From: Acetobacteraceae bacterium
GTDB lineage: Bacteria; Pseudomonadota; Alphaproteobacteria; Acetobacterales; Acetobacteraceae
Length of the DNA stretch: 64,000 nt
Assembly (NCBI GenBank): GCA_027482245.1
Contig: JAIXWG010000064.1
Span: 1 to 64,000 of the forward strand
Direction of reading: 5' to 3'
Numbering within the stretch: position 1 is the first letter of the stretch; each line of letters begins with the position of its first letter. The notes below the pieces were generated by a model, which saw only the letters and a program-made list of their open reading frames with translations, was not told where the DNA came from and searched no databases. Below are positions 23,296-56,049 of the stretch, piece by piece. The position numbers and the translations under genes were made by a program.

Positions 23296-25992
<2,697 letters not shown>

Positions 25993-25999
25993 GCCGCCT

Positions 26000-26118
26000 G
26001 CCCTCAAGCGTCGTGCCGAAGGCACGCCTGCGGCGTGATGGGCGGCCCCTCCGGGGCCTTGGCTCGCCGGACAACCGGCGGGCCGCATTCGCGGCCTCGG
26101 CCGACTTCGTCGGCCGCA
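26000..26118 (+). repeat. Hairpin-chain intergenic repeat, copy 1
   Basis: Begins eight bases after the acnA stop with GCCCTCAAGCG, and contains consecutive stems: GTGCC/GGCAC, GGCCCC/GGGGCC, CCGG/CCGG, GGCCG/CGGCC and GGCCGAC/GTCGGCC. It aligns over its whole length with 54060-54180. Unpaired parts (GCCCTCAAGCG, TTGGCTCGC, ATTC) are shared, while several stems differ by paired substitutions. It can be read through as protein, but the reading is not conserved between the copies, so I treat it as a structural repeat. Confidence 0.75.
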
Positions 26119-26154
26119 GGTCGCGCTGCCGCGGCGCTATCGGTTCAGGGTTGG

Positions 26155-52828: not shown

Positions 52829-54055
52829 ATGGCTGGCATTTCCTTCACCCGCCGCGCGACCTTGGCGGCAGGCTCGGGCCTCGCGACCGCGGCGCTGATC
52901 GGTGCCCGGGGCAGCGCGGCGCAGGGCGCGCCGGTGAAGGTGGGGGAGCTCAACTCCTACGCCCGCATGGCCGCCTTCTCCGTCCCCTACCGCAACGCCA
53001 TCCAGCTGGCGGTGGACGGCATCAACCGCGCCGGCGGCGTGATGGGCGGCCGGCCCCTCGAATTCGTCTTCCGCGACGACGGCTCGACCCCCGGTGACGC
53101 GGTGCGCGTGGCGGAGGACCTGCTGACGCGGGAGGGCTGCGCCTTCCTCGCCGGCACCTTCCTCTCCAATGTCGGGCTTGCCGTCGCGGACCTCGCGAAC
53201 CAGCGGAAGAAGCTGTTCCTGGCGACGGAGCCGCTGACCGATGCGCTGACCATGGCGCAGGGCAACCGCTACACCTGGCGGCTGCGCCCCAGCACCTACA
53301 TGCAGACGCGCATGCTGACGGAAGCGGCCAAGGGCCGCACCACGCGGCGCTGGGCGATCGTCGCGCCCAACTACGAATACGGGCAGTCCGCCGCCGCCAA
53401 CTTCAAGCGCCTGATCACGGAAAGCATCCCGGGGGCGGAGATCGTGGCGGAGCAGTATCCGGCACTCGGCCGCGTCGATGCCGGCGCCACCGTCGGCGCG
53501 CTGGCGCAGGCGCGGCCCGATGGCATCTTCAACGTGCTGTTCGGACCGGACCTCACGGCCTTCGTCCGCGAGGGCAACACGCGCGGGTTGTTCGAGCGTC
53601 GCTTCGTCCTCTCCCTGCTGACGGGCGAGCCCGAATACATGATCCCGCTGGGCGACGAGACGCCGGAGGGCTGGATCGTCACGGGCTATCCGTGGGAGCA
53701 GATCACGGACGGCCCCCACAAGGCCTTCATCGACGCCTACCGCGCCCGCTTCAACGACACGCCGCGCAAGGGGTCGCTGCTGGGCTACGTCACCGCGCAG
53801 GTGGTGGCCAACCTGCTGAACAAGGCGAACTCCATCGACAGCGAAGTCCTTGTCGAGGCGTTCAAGGACCTCCGCACCGACACCGTCGTCGGCAACGTCA
53901 CCATGCGCGCGCTCGACCAGCAGGGCACCATGGGCACTTGGGTGGGGGAGACGGTGCTGCGTGGCCGCAATGGCGCCATGCGCAACATCCGCTACGCCGA
54001 TGGTGCGGACTTCCTGTTCCCGGAAGCGGAAGTGCGCGCCGCCCGGAGAATTTAG
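52829..54055 (+). CDS. Branched-chain-type ABC transporter substrate-binding protein
   Basis: A 408-residue Leu/Ile/Val-family periplasmic binding protein exported by a Tat-like signal (FTRRATLAAGSGLATAAL...AAQG). It starts its mature part with PVKVGELNSYARMAAFSVPYRNAIQLAVDGINRAGGVMGGRPLE, and RTTRRWAIVAPNYEYGQSA marks the second lobe. The ligand cannot be assigned; the family also binds urea, amides and aromatics. Genes for hydantoinase-type and molybdoenzyme subunits downstream suggest an N-containing compound. It is divergent from the AapJ-like gene and separated from the permease by a 120-bp hairpin repeat. Confidence 0.9.
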   Translation: MAGISFTRRATLAAGSGLATAALIGARGSAAQGAPVKVGELNSYARMAAFSVPYRNAIQLAVDGINRAGGVMGGRPLEFVFRDDGSTPGDAVRVAEDLLTREGCAFLAGTFLSNVGLAVADLANQRKKLFLATEPLTDALTMAQGNRYTWRLRPSTYMQTRMLTEAAKGRTTRRWAIVAPNYEYGQSAAANFKRLITESIPGAEIVAEQYPALGRVDAGATVGALAQARPDGIFNVLFGPDLTAFVREGNTRGLFERRFVLSLLTGEPEYMIPLGDETPEGWIVTGYPWEQITDGPHKAFIDAYRARFNDTPRKGSLLGYVTAQVVANLLNKANSIDSEVLVEAFKDLRTDTVVGNVTMRALDQQGTMGTWVGETVLRGRNGAMRNIRYADGADFLFPEAEVRAARRI

Positions 54056-54059
54056 TGAT

Positions 54060-54180
54060 GCCCTCAAGCGCGTCGCGCCGAAGGCGCGCCTTCGGCGCGA
54101 CGCGCGCGCATCCGCGCGCTTGGCTCGCTGGACTACCGGCGGCCGCCATTCGGCGGCTCGGCCGGCAAAAGCCGGCCGCA
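54060..54180 (+). repeat. Hairpin-chain intergenic repeat, copy 2
   Basis: Begins five bases after the substrate-binding-protein stop with GCCCTCAAGCG and ends 21 bp before the permease ATG. Stems seen: TCGCGCC/GGCGCGA, GCGCGCG/CGCGCGC and GGCCGGC/GCCGGCC, plus GGCGGCCGCC-type symmetry. It aligns throughout with 26000-26118, with compensatory changes in the paired parts. In location it resembles the REP elements in E. coli operons between a binding-protein gene and its permease genes. Confidence 0.75.
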
Positions 54181-54201
54181 TCTTGGTCCCGGGCATTCTA
54201 G

Positions 54202-56049
54202 ATGGATCTCGGCTTCATCGTGGTCCAGTCCCTCTCGGGACTGGCCAGCGCCTCCGCGCTGTTCATCATCGCCTCCGGCCTAACGCTGGTTTTCGGCGTC
54301 ACGCGCATCGTCAACTTCGCGCATGGCAGCTTCTACATGCTGGGCGCCTATATCGCCGTGACGGTCGTGCCCTGGCTGCTGGAGTTCGACCGTTCGCCCA
54401 CGCTGTTCTTCGCGGGCGTCATCATCTCCGCCATCGCGGTCGGCGTGCTGGGCGTGCTGATGGAGCTTCTGCTGCTCCGCCGCCTCTACAAGGTGCCAGA
54501 GCTGTTTCAATTGTTGGCCACCTTCGGCGTCGTGCTGATGGTGCAGGACGCGGTGCTGAAGATCTGGGGGCCGATCGATATCCCGGGCCCGCGCGCGCCG
54601 GGGCTGCGGCATGGCGTGGAGATCCTCGGCCAGCGCTTCCCGGCCTATGAGCTGTTCCTGATCGTCATCGGCCCCGCCGTGCTCGGCCTGCTCTGGCTGC
54701 TGATGCACCGCACGCGCTTCGGCATCCTGATCCGCGCCGCGACGCGGGACCGGGAGATGGTGGGTGCGCTCGGCGTCAACCAGGCGATGCTCTTCACCGG
54801 CACGCTGTTCCTGGGCGCGGCCCTGGCGGGGCTCGGCGGCGCCTTGCAGATCCCCCGCGTCTCCGCCTCCTCCCAGATGGACCTCTCCATCATCACGGAG
54901 GCCTTCGTGGTGACGGTCATCGGCGGCATGGGCAGCGTGCCCGGCGCCTTCCTCGCCGCCGTGCTGATCGGGCAGCTCCAGGCCTTCGGCGTGCTGGTCT
55001 TCCCGAAGATCACGCTGGTACTGGTCTTCCTGCTGATGGCGGCGGTGCTGGTGGTGAAGCCCTGGGGCCTGCTCGGCCGGCCGGAAGCAGCCGCGGGCCG
55101 CGCCGCCCTGCCGGAAGGCATTCTGTCAGTTCGCGCCTTCGGTGTGCCGGAACGGATCATCGCCGGTATCGCCACCGCCGCCATGCTCGCCGTGCCGGTC
55201 TTCGGCGACGCCTATACCGTGAAGGTGGCGACGGAGGTGCTGGTCTTCGCCCTCGCCGCCTTCTCGCTCAACTTCCTCGTCGGCAATGGCGGCATCGTCA
55301 GCTTCGGCCACGCCGCCTATTTCGGGCTCGGCGCCTATGCCGCGGGGCTGCTGGTGACGAAGGGCGGCTTCGCGATGGAGCCAGCACTGGTCGCGGCCCC
55401 CATCGCGGGCGCGCTCTTCGCCGCGCTGTTCGGCTTCTTCGTCGTGCGCCTGTCCGGCATCTATCTCGCGATGCTGACGCTGGCCTTCGCGCAGATCGCC
55501 TATGCCGTCTGCTTCCAATGGGTGGAGGTGACGGGCGGGGACAATGGCGTGGTCGGCGTCTGGCCGAGCCGCTGGGCGGCATCCCGCCATGTCTACCACT
55601 ACGTCGTCGCGGGCTGCGCGATCCTCGCCATCATCGCGCTGAGGCGCGTGATCTACGCCCCTTTCGGCGCGACGCTCAGGGCGGCGCGGGATTCGGAACA
55701 GCGCTCGGACGCCATCGGCATCGATGTCCGCACCCATCGCTGGATCGCCTTCACGCTCGCCGGTGCGGCGGCCGGTCTCGCAGGCGGGCTCTACGCCTTC
55801 TCCAAGGGCTCCATCGACCCGACGCTGCTCTCCATCCCCATGTCCGTCGATTTCCTGGCGATGATCCTGCTGGGCGGCATCCAGACCGTGATGGGGGCGG
55901 TGGCCGGCGCCGCGGCCTTCCACACCATCAAGGACATCGTCATGCCGCTGACGGATAGCTGGCGGTTCCTGCTCGGCGCCTCGATCATCGCGCTGGTGCT
56001 GGTCTTCCCGCGCGGCCTCGGCGGCGCCTTCGCCGGGAGGCGCGCATGA
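54202..56049 (+). CDS. Fused branched-chain-type ABC permease (LivH-LivM)
   Basis: A 615-residue inner-membrane protein joining two permease halves. The first 290 residues are LivH-like (GFIVVQSLSGLASASALFIIASGLTLVFGVTRIVNFAHGSFYMLGAY), ending after PWGLLGRPE. The rest is LivM-like (EVLVFALAAFSLNFLVGNGGIVSFGHAAYFGLGAYAAGLL, RAARDSEQRSDAIGIDVRTHRWIAF). Most systems encode them separately. The stop overlaps livG by four bases (ATGA). Confidence 0.92.
   Translation: MDLGFIVVQSLSGLASASALFIIASGLTLVFGVTRIVNFAHGSFYMLGAYIAVTVVPWLLEFDRSPTLFFAGVIISAIAVGVLGVLMELLLLRRLYKVPELFQLLATFGVVLMVQDAVLKIWGPIDIPGPRAPGLRHGVEILGQRFPAYELFLIVIGPAVLGLLWLLMHRTRFGILIRAATRDREMVGALGVNQAMLFTGTLFLGAALAGLGGALQIPRVSASSQMDLSIITEAFVVTVIGGMGSVPGAFLAAVLIGQLQAFGVLVFPKITLVLVFLLMAAVLVVKPWGLLGRPEAAAGRAALPEGILSVRAFGVPERIIAGIATAAMLAVPVFGDAYTVKVATEVLVFALAAFSLNFLVGNGGIVSFGHAAYFGLGAYAAGLLVTKGGFAMEPALVAAPIAGALFAALFGFFVVRLSGIYLAMLTLAFAQIAYAVCFQWVEVTGGDNGVVGVWPSRWAASRHVYHYVVAGCAILAIIALRRVIYAPFGATLRAARDSEQRSDAIGIDVRTHRWIAFTLAGAAAGLAGGLYAFSKGSIDPTLLSIPMSVDFLAMILLGGIQTVMGAVAGAAAFHTIKDIVMPLTDSWRFLLGASIIALVLVFPRGLGGAFAGRRA

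Follow-up and report, generated by a model that had tools for sequence, protein, structure and literature searches.

The window, which is the whole stretch of 64,000 nucleotides analyzed here, contains two copies of a short structured repeat. Both probably belong to a non-autonomous mobile repeat that occurs in many Alphaproteobacteria, with hairpins that are turned over as units. The element apparently bears marks of transposition and resembles a non-autonomous transposon, because it has many copies, TACC/GGTA ends with TNA triplets, and presence/absence differences between congeners. Against this reading, a transposase whose ends match was found neither in the source genome nor in one distant genome, G033, and most copies in the source genome have no recognizable ends. 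The family of structured repeats is real and apparently undescribed.

Core structure of the repeat

The element core is about 95 nt long and consists of four hairpins (Table 1). The two window copies are collinear over their full length, in agreement with the earlier note, which had described two copies that align from end to end. The paired change quoted there for hairpin 4 is correct (GGCCGAC/GTCGGCC in copy 1 and GGCCGGC/GCCGGCC in copy 2). The swap in hairpin 1 is also real (GGCCCC/GGGGCC vs. GCGCGC/GCGCGC), but the copy 2 stem had been drawn one base too long. The extent needed revision at both boundaries, since complete elements reach past each of them. The first palindrome within each copy is a separate nested repeat instead of part of the core. 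The start had been placed 5-8 bp after a stop codon; the core does follow a stop codon in both copies, at a distance of 6 nt for copy 1 (aconitase stop) and of 3 nt for copy 2.

Table 1. Features of the two window copies and their neighboring genes (positions in the window).
Feature	Position	Strand	Remarks
Aconitase gene, upstream of copy 1	23302..25992	+	PF00330, PF00694
Copy 1 of element core, with nested palindrome	25999..26120	+	Between aconitase stop codon and next gene
Palindrome nested in copy 1, 28 nt	26011..26038	+	CGTC...GACG type, last bases altered; second repeat family
Hairpin 1 inner stem, copy 1	26044..26058	+	GGCCCC-TCC-GGGGCC
Conserved linker TTGGCT, copy 1	26059..26064	+	TTGGC is the 3' half of the outer hairpin 1 stem in ordinary copies
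Hairpin 2, copy 1	26065..26080	+	
Hairpin 3, copy 1	26081..26096	+	
Hairpin 4, copy 1	26098..26116	+	
Periplasmic binding protein gene, upstream of copy 2	52829..54055	+	PF13458
Copy 2 of element core, with nested palindrome	54059..54182	+	Flanked by two co-directional transporter genes
Palindrome nested in copy 2, 32 nt	54071..54102	+	CGTC...GACG; missing from same-site copy in G006
Hairpin 1 inner stem, copy 2	54104..54119	+	GCGCGC-ATCC-GCGCGC
Conserved linker TTGGCT, copy 2	54120..54125	+	
Hairpin 2, copy 2	54126..54141	+	
Hairpin 3, copy 2	54142..54157	+	
Hairpin 4, copy 2	54159..54178	+	
Branched-chain amino-acid type permease gene, downstream of copy 2	54202..56049	+	PF02653

Covariance model R1 was built from eight copies and has 95 positions and 31 pairs. 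It gave 84 matches at E≤0.0001 in stretches of the source genome, and removal of two duplicate rows from overlapping loci left 82 distinct copies. In these copies 98.1% of 2,465 stem cells are paired, compared to 78.3% in shuffles and 29-47% when partners were slid by 1-3 columns; the alignment was fitted to R1, which favors the pairing figures, but the slid controls are nonetheless far lower. Changes on both sides were found at 24 of the 31 pairs, and 361 cells are double-changed (104 in shuffles). Two G-U pairs in the outer stem of hairpin 1 are conserved, each in 72 of the 82 copies. Congeneric genomes contributed 80 distinct copies (89 rows minus nine identical ones), with 99.1% of stem cells paired and double changes at 19 of 31 pairs. 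A set of 17 hand-picked cores from several families is 98.2% paired and has double changes at 10 of 23 pairs, a number reached by 11 of 500 shuffles.

The linkers CCTCA..CGCC.GGCG and CTTGGCT..CGCCG are almost invariant in the 17 hand-picked cores, in part because 11 of the 17 came from an exact-pattern scan that required most of those letters. In loci from other genera, found with the wider model R2, the linkers are kept with some changes, and the motif is present in 24 of the 25 loci listed. Linkers so nearly identical suggest a constraint, which would be unnecessary for a passive repeat, but ascertainment accounts for part of the similarity. With up to two mismatches allowed, the linker motifs alone occur in the window at chance level (five matches with 4.2 expected, and eight with 12.3 expected); what stands out there is confined to the exact motif matches at the two copies and to the structure taken as a whole.

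Copy number and distribution

The earlier note had proposed a genome-wide covariance-model search for further copies, and such copies are abundant. The source genome has at least 88 R1 matches at E≤0.01, a lower bound because only the best 150 of 14,591 first-look candidates were scored, and it has 47 BLAST matches to copy 1 at E≤0.001, many of them partial. Matches to R1 were found in all 14 congeners searched in addition to the source genome, in none of eight genomes from other genera of the family, and in 3 of 16 from the rest of the class. At E≤0.0001, R2 matched at least 29 of 385 genomes of the class (source included), representing at least 22 of 277 genera; the best 12 candidates per genome were scored, which makes these counts lower bounds. 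Under the same scoring, R2 had no match in four further genomes of the source's family. Among named records, exact matches to the core pattern were found in Roseomonas, Falsiroseomonas, Roseococcus, Roseicella, and several MAGs. This is a family of structured and apparently mobile repeats, spread patchily over the class Alphaproteobacteria, and it could alter mRNA 3' ends.

A plasmid collection gave no match with window copy 1 as query. With two distant members as queries, it gave Niveispirillum plasmids and, as a partial match of 39 nt, a hit in Nitratireductor; the annotation of these records was not informative. Arrays in which three core copies follow one another in tandem are present at L126 and at G328:C5:26473-26774, with spacing of about 103 and 114-115 bp.

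Rfam had no match at gathering threshold in the window or in eight loci, and at a relaxed threshold three loci gave one weak match only, located off the element. No description of the family was found in open-licence PubMed Central papers. Together with the many copies, these searches uphold the earlier suggestion of an undescribed repeat family.

Complete elements, ends, and target-site duplication

The best-preserved elements are about 150-170 nt long. They are laid out as TNA, TACC..., a 5' hairpin, CCTCARNCGCCGGGC, hairpin 1, CTTGGCT, hairpin 2, hairpin 3, hairpin 4 or another 3' hairpin, ...GGTA, and TNA. Outside the core, complete elements have a 5' hairpin on one side and a 3' tail or hairpin on the other. 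Terminal inverted repeats are found only in complete copies. The window copies have no recognizable ends, and therefore their own duplication is unreadable. Fixed end patterns were used because a blind search for inverted ends over all source-genome copies was too noisy at this G+C content.

Ends were also called in a distant genome, G033, which has 22 near-full copies that are 92-100% identical; nine of them are at contig ends, and some may therefore be counted twice. Loci with short or identical flanks were omitted from its end analysis, which left 12 copies. All 12 begin with TNA followed by TACC or a near form; 5' ends were called in 12 and 3' ends in 10, and nine of the 10 copies with both ends have identical flank triplets. 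Calls in the source genome were sparser and surely include some chance matches, with 5' ends in 25 of 82 copies (TNA flank in 16) and 3' ends in 15 of 82 (TNA in 10). Both ends were callable in 10 of 82 copies, and eight of these have identical flanks; of the remaining two, one (L020) probably reflects a false end call. When the two genomes are pooled, identical 3-nt flanks, all TNA, are present in 17 of 20 copies with both ends. A permutation test gave a mean of 7.7, and none of 200,000 permutations reached 17 of 20. Flank triplets in inverted instead of direct copy were found in 0 of 20.

The end pattern TNATACCAACGGCNNC, with at most one mismatch, has 16 matches in the source genome, vs. 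none for a reversed control. Thirteen of these adjoin copies listed by R1. The other three have no listed copy beside them: one falls within a called gene, one is at L332, and one has neither a gene nor the core motif; no partner end was found within 3 kb of any of the three. The match at L332 is probably a further copy because the core motif lies within 300 nt of it, and it overlaps the end of a called gene. In G033, a lone 5' hairpin at L211 (1860-1910) has TACC/GGTA ends with differing flanks, TAA and TTA, and is possibly a minimal derivative.

We propose that the element inserts by transposition at TNA, and therefore a TGA or TAA stop codon could serve as the target and would then be restored by the duplication. 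Several source-genome copies have a TNA that doubles as the stop codon of a neighboring gene, either upstream (tgaTACC) or downstream (GGTAtca).

Search for a mobilizing enzyme

The TNA preference of the element resembles that of the IS1031 group of IS5. Five IS5-type (DUF4096) genes in the source genome were searched for TNA-flanked inverted ends 600-1800 bp apart, and none were found, so the IS5-type transposases of this genome were rejected as the parent. Two DUF4096 loci, L197 and L199 (both short), show other inverted ends. In G033, three of the places with partial BLAST matches, other than C44 and C19, yielded fragments or a lone 5' hairpin. No autonomous transposon with matching ends was found in either the source genome or G033, and this cannot be generalized because only these two genomes are covered.

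The Y1 transposase domain PF01797 was not found in the source genome, and the same search was positive in 5 of 14 control genomes. Across the 385 genomes of the class it is present in 6 of 29 element-bearing genomes vs. 66 of 356 others (p=0.80). A RAYT as present mover was rejected on the basis of this absence from the source genome and lack of class-wide co-occurrence. To our knowledge, identical TNA flanks are not expected from RAYT-type transposition.

Occurrence at the two sites and placement relative to genes

The two insertion sites were compared among 14 congeneric genomes, source included. At the copy 2 site the element is present only in the source genome and G006 and is missing in the other 12. 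The G006 copy does not have the nested palindrome, and therefore either one lineage acquired the palindrome or the other lost it. At the copy 1 site the element is present in none of the 13 other genomes (~260 nt past the aconitase gene), some of which have other palindromes. In the closest congeners (L213-L215), a different GC-rich palindromic repeat occupies the same place after aconitase. G033 carries a 3' fragment of its own version of the element at L209 (2161-2216), also just past an aconitase gene.

Genes were called with a custom caller, and five of the 82 source-genome copies overlapping called genes were excluded, which left 77 intergenic copies. Of these, 30 are in convergent, 44 in tandem, and three in divergent gaps. 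Element-free gaps of at least 20 nt in the same loci (n=151) comprise 12 convergent, 92 tandem, and 47 divergent gaps. Divergent gaps are thus depleted (3/77 vs. 47/151, p=4.5e-7) and convergent gaps enriched (30/77 vs. 12/151, p=3.6e-8). Copies in tandem gaps are sense in 26 cases and antisense in 18 (p=0.29), so the same orientation after a stop codon, reported for the two window copies, is not general; the actual rule is a position beside gene ends. For copies whose upstream gene shares their strand, the distance from gene end to core start is at most 15 nt in 20 of 56 (two of them after tRNA genes) and 25-50 nt in another 28; the 5' hairpin occupies the gap in many copies of this second group. 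Copies at L017 and L022 lie immediately behind tRNA-Leu genes.

Insertions at gene ends may be tolerated, and those in promoters would be lost. Copies in operons and 3' UTRs would be co-transcribed and, as a side effect, may alter the decay of the mRNA or the expression of what lies downstream. The earlier proposal of a 3'-end RNA element is borne out as to placement (three of 77 copies in divergent gaps), but not as to a conserved regulatory role at the two sites, where 12 of 14 and 13 of 13 genomes have no copy. A terminator scan at copy 1 detected no terminator by its rule.

Source of the covariation

Stem alleles are mostly perfect, few in number, and common to many copies and to congeners. 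In the 82 source-genome copies, the five commonest alleles of the hairpin 1 inner stem cover 52 copies, and the three commonest stem alleles cover 62 copies for hairpin 2 and 68 for hairpin 3; hairpin 4 is more variable, with 31 stem types. Association between alleles was tested in copies with common alleles (52-66 of 82, depending on the hairpin pair). Alleles are independent for hairpins 1 and 3 (p=0.13), 2 and 3 (p=0.56), 1 and 4 (p=0.25), and 2 and 4 (p=0.23), weakly associated for hairpins 1 and 2 (p=0.024), and strongly associated for hairpins 3 and 4 (0 of 2,000 shuffles). Potential intermediates are rare. With the two conserved G-U pairs excluded, G-U cells number 25 and A-C cells 15 of 2,303 in the source genome (p=0.15), and congeners have 10 and 11; because this difference is not significant, selection on RNA of one strand is not demonstrated.

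Between related species, swaps of whole stems are visible in copies that share a site. Sixteen BLAST pairs minus six, plus the second window copy with L229, gave 11 between-species pairs; those removed were L017-L291 (twice), L033-L293, L163-L287 (two tandem copies), and L179-L252 and L192-L246 (one flank). Relatives' copies in this set lean toward the well-formed because they were chosen among the best-scoring, and some pairs are possibly independent insertions (e.g., L022/L290, with a differing junction). Of 338 stem cells compared, 298 are unchanged; 18 are double changes that remain paired and one is a broken double change, and one-sided changes left 10 cells still paired and 11 broken. 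Three more cells are gapped. Eight of the 18 paired double changes come from a single pair, L159/L248. At unpaired positions, 88 of 434 differ.

The source of covariation that we favor is palindrome turnover by recombination between copies, with fold-back copying as a helper. Hairpins would be exchanged or rebuilt as units by recombination through the near-identical linkers, and the copying of an arm onto its partner by fold-back may assist; the arms would therefore change jointly and leave few single-base intermediates. The earlier statement that structure is maintained is accurate as a description, given the pairing in the 82 copies, but the step from covariation to selection on RNA structure is not established, because G-U and A-C intermediates are rare and not significantly different in number, perfect alleles are shared, hairpins assort largely independently, and whole stems are swapped. 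Strong covariation is often taken as proof of a functional RNA, and caution is warranted since it can arise from concerted palindrome turnover in a DNA repeat. Same-site pairs from congeners provide a natural experiment on the rebuilding of hairpins in bacterial chromosomes.

Alternative explanations

The repeat could instead be a functional RNA at mRNA 3' ends (a stabilizer, processing site, or sRNA source) that is kept by selection on RNA structure, which we consider unlikely. Copies do adjoin gene ends, with copy 1 bounded on one side by the aconitase stop and on the other by a GC-rich hairpin found again behind aconitase in congeners, and with copy 2 separating two transporter genes of the same direction. 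The conserved G-U pairs of the outer hairpin 1 stem favor one strand, and folding z-scores are -3.56 and -5.71. However, the reverse strand folds nearly as well, neither window site is conserved among congeners, there is no significant shortage of antisense relative to sense copies, and G-U intermediates are not in significant excess over A-C. It is quite improbable that fold-back template switching inside each hairpin alone made the paired changes, with no exchange between copies. Such switching fits the rarity of intermediates and has been discussed as a possible cause of concerted change in inverted-repeat arms (PMC6649704), but local repair would not readily yield a few stem alleles common to many copies and congeners, and eight stem pairs switch in the same-site pair L159/L248.

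High-copy extragenic palindromes beside gene ends, a hairpin near the 5' end, and fixed linkers also recall a REP/REPIN-type element, which a RAYT (Y1 HUH) transposase would move by acting on single-stranded hairpins. The distribution of PF01797 and the identical TNA flanks speak against this and make it very improbable. The GTAG head is also missing, and a core of about 95 nt with four hairpins is not a palindrome of 20-40 bp (PMC3733652). Our preferred reading remains the non-autonomous mobile repeat with unit-wise hairpin turnover. There is some chance, though we would not count on it, that this repeat represents a new class of transposable element, in which conservation would rest on a multi-hairpin core with fixed linkers instead of on the ends or a coding sequence, with a mobilizing enzyme acting in trans, stems exchanged as cassettes, and TNA in stop codons as safe sites.

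Comparison with known repeats

Miniature inverted-repeat transposable elements (MITEs), especially IS5/IS1031-type MITEs with TNA targets, are likewise short and multi-copy, with inverted ends and a 3-bp TNA duplication. No parent transposon was found for the present element. Its ends vary from one genus to another and its internal core is conserved, which is the opposite of a usual MITE.

The BOX, RUP, and SPRITE repeats of pneumococcus are likewise short, multi-copy, strongly folded, and enriched between convergent genes (PMC3049150). BOX is modular, and all three are thought to be mobile now or formerly and can be co-transcribed (PMC3049150). They differ from the present element in phylum and sequence. 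The present element has a four-hairpin core with near-identical linkers, occurs in many families of one class, and, unlike BOX, RUP, and SPRITE, has interchangeable stems and TNA duplications.

GTAG and CGTC REPs are likewise palindromic, extragenic, and mostly downstream of genes, but they are hairpins of 20-40 bp, often in dimers (PMC3733652), whereas the present core has four hairpins in about 95 nt. The same study describes CGTC REPs as common in Alphaproteobacteria, with no known transposase and with some inserted in other palindromes, and reports them as missing from Acetobacteraceae (PMC3733652). A RepRanger catalogue lists 1,369 REPs in the alphaproteobacterium Lichenicola cladoniae (PMC12306157), and single hairpins of elements like the present one could be among its counts. 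The available text of that catalogue treats palindromes and does not address the composite element, its linkers, its ends, or its target (PMC12306157).

Br-REP1, in 3' UTRs of the alphaproteobacterium Bradyrhizobium, has three adjacent palindromes present in RNA reads between convergent genes (PMC5082802). Its consensus as given in the available part of that paper, CCGGAATCTCGAGATTCCGG, is unlike the present core and has no linker in common with it (PMC5082802). In nematomorph mitochondrial inverted repeats both arms likewise change jointly and stay perfect (PMC6649704); those are coding palindromes, whereas the present repeats are interspersed elements.

Nested palindromes and inserts

A CGTC...GACG palindrome of 28-32 nt is nested in several hairpins of the element, in 10 of the 82 source-genome copies. 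Copies that carry it include both window copies and those at L009, L010, L019, L024, L037, L163, and L180. An exact 17-nt part of it is found in 17 of 330 loci, with overlapping loci counted. At L222 in the congener G012 it sits in an unrelated hairpin, pointing to a second small mobile repeat. CGTC dimers are resembled by these nested palindromes and not by the core (PMC3733652). CGTC REPs are recognized by a CGTC head, a stem of 8-9 bp that starts with complementary AT, and a CCA tail (PMC3733652); by eye, the nested palindrome has CGTC/GACG ends and no AT at the start of the stem.

Another insert of about 45 nt, palindromic in appearance (CCGGGACCCCATG...), is present in the loop of hairpin 3 at L033, L036, L041, L161, L170, L180, and L297. 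Its start is found near eight of the 82 copies, and its first 13 nt occur in 10 of 330 loci.
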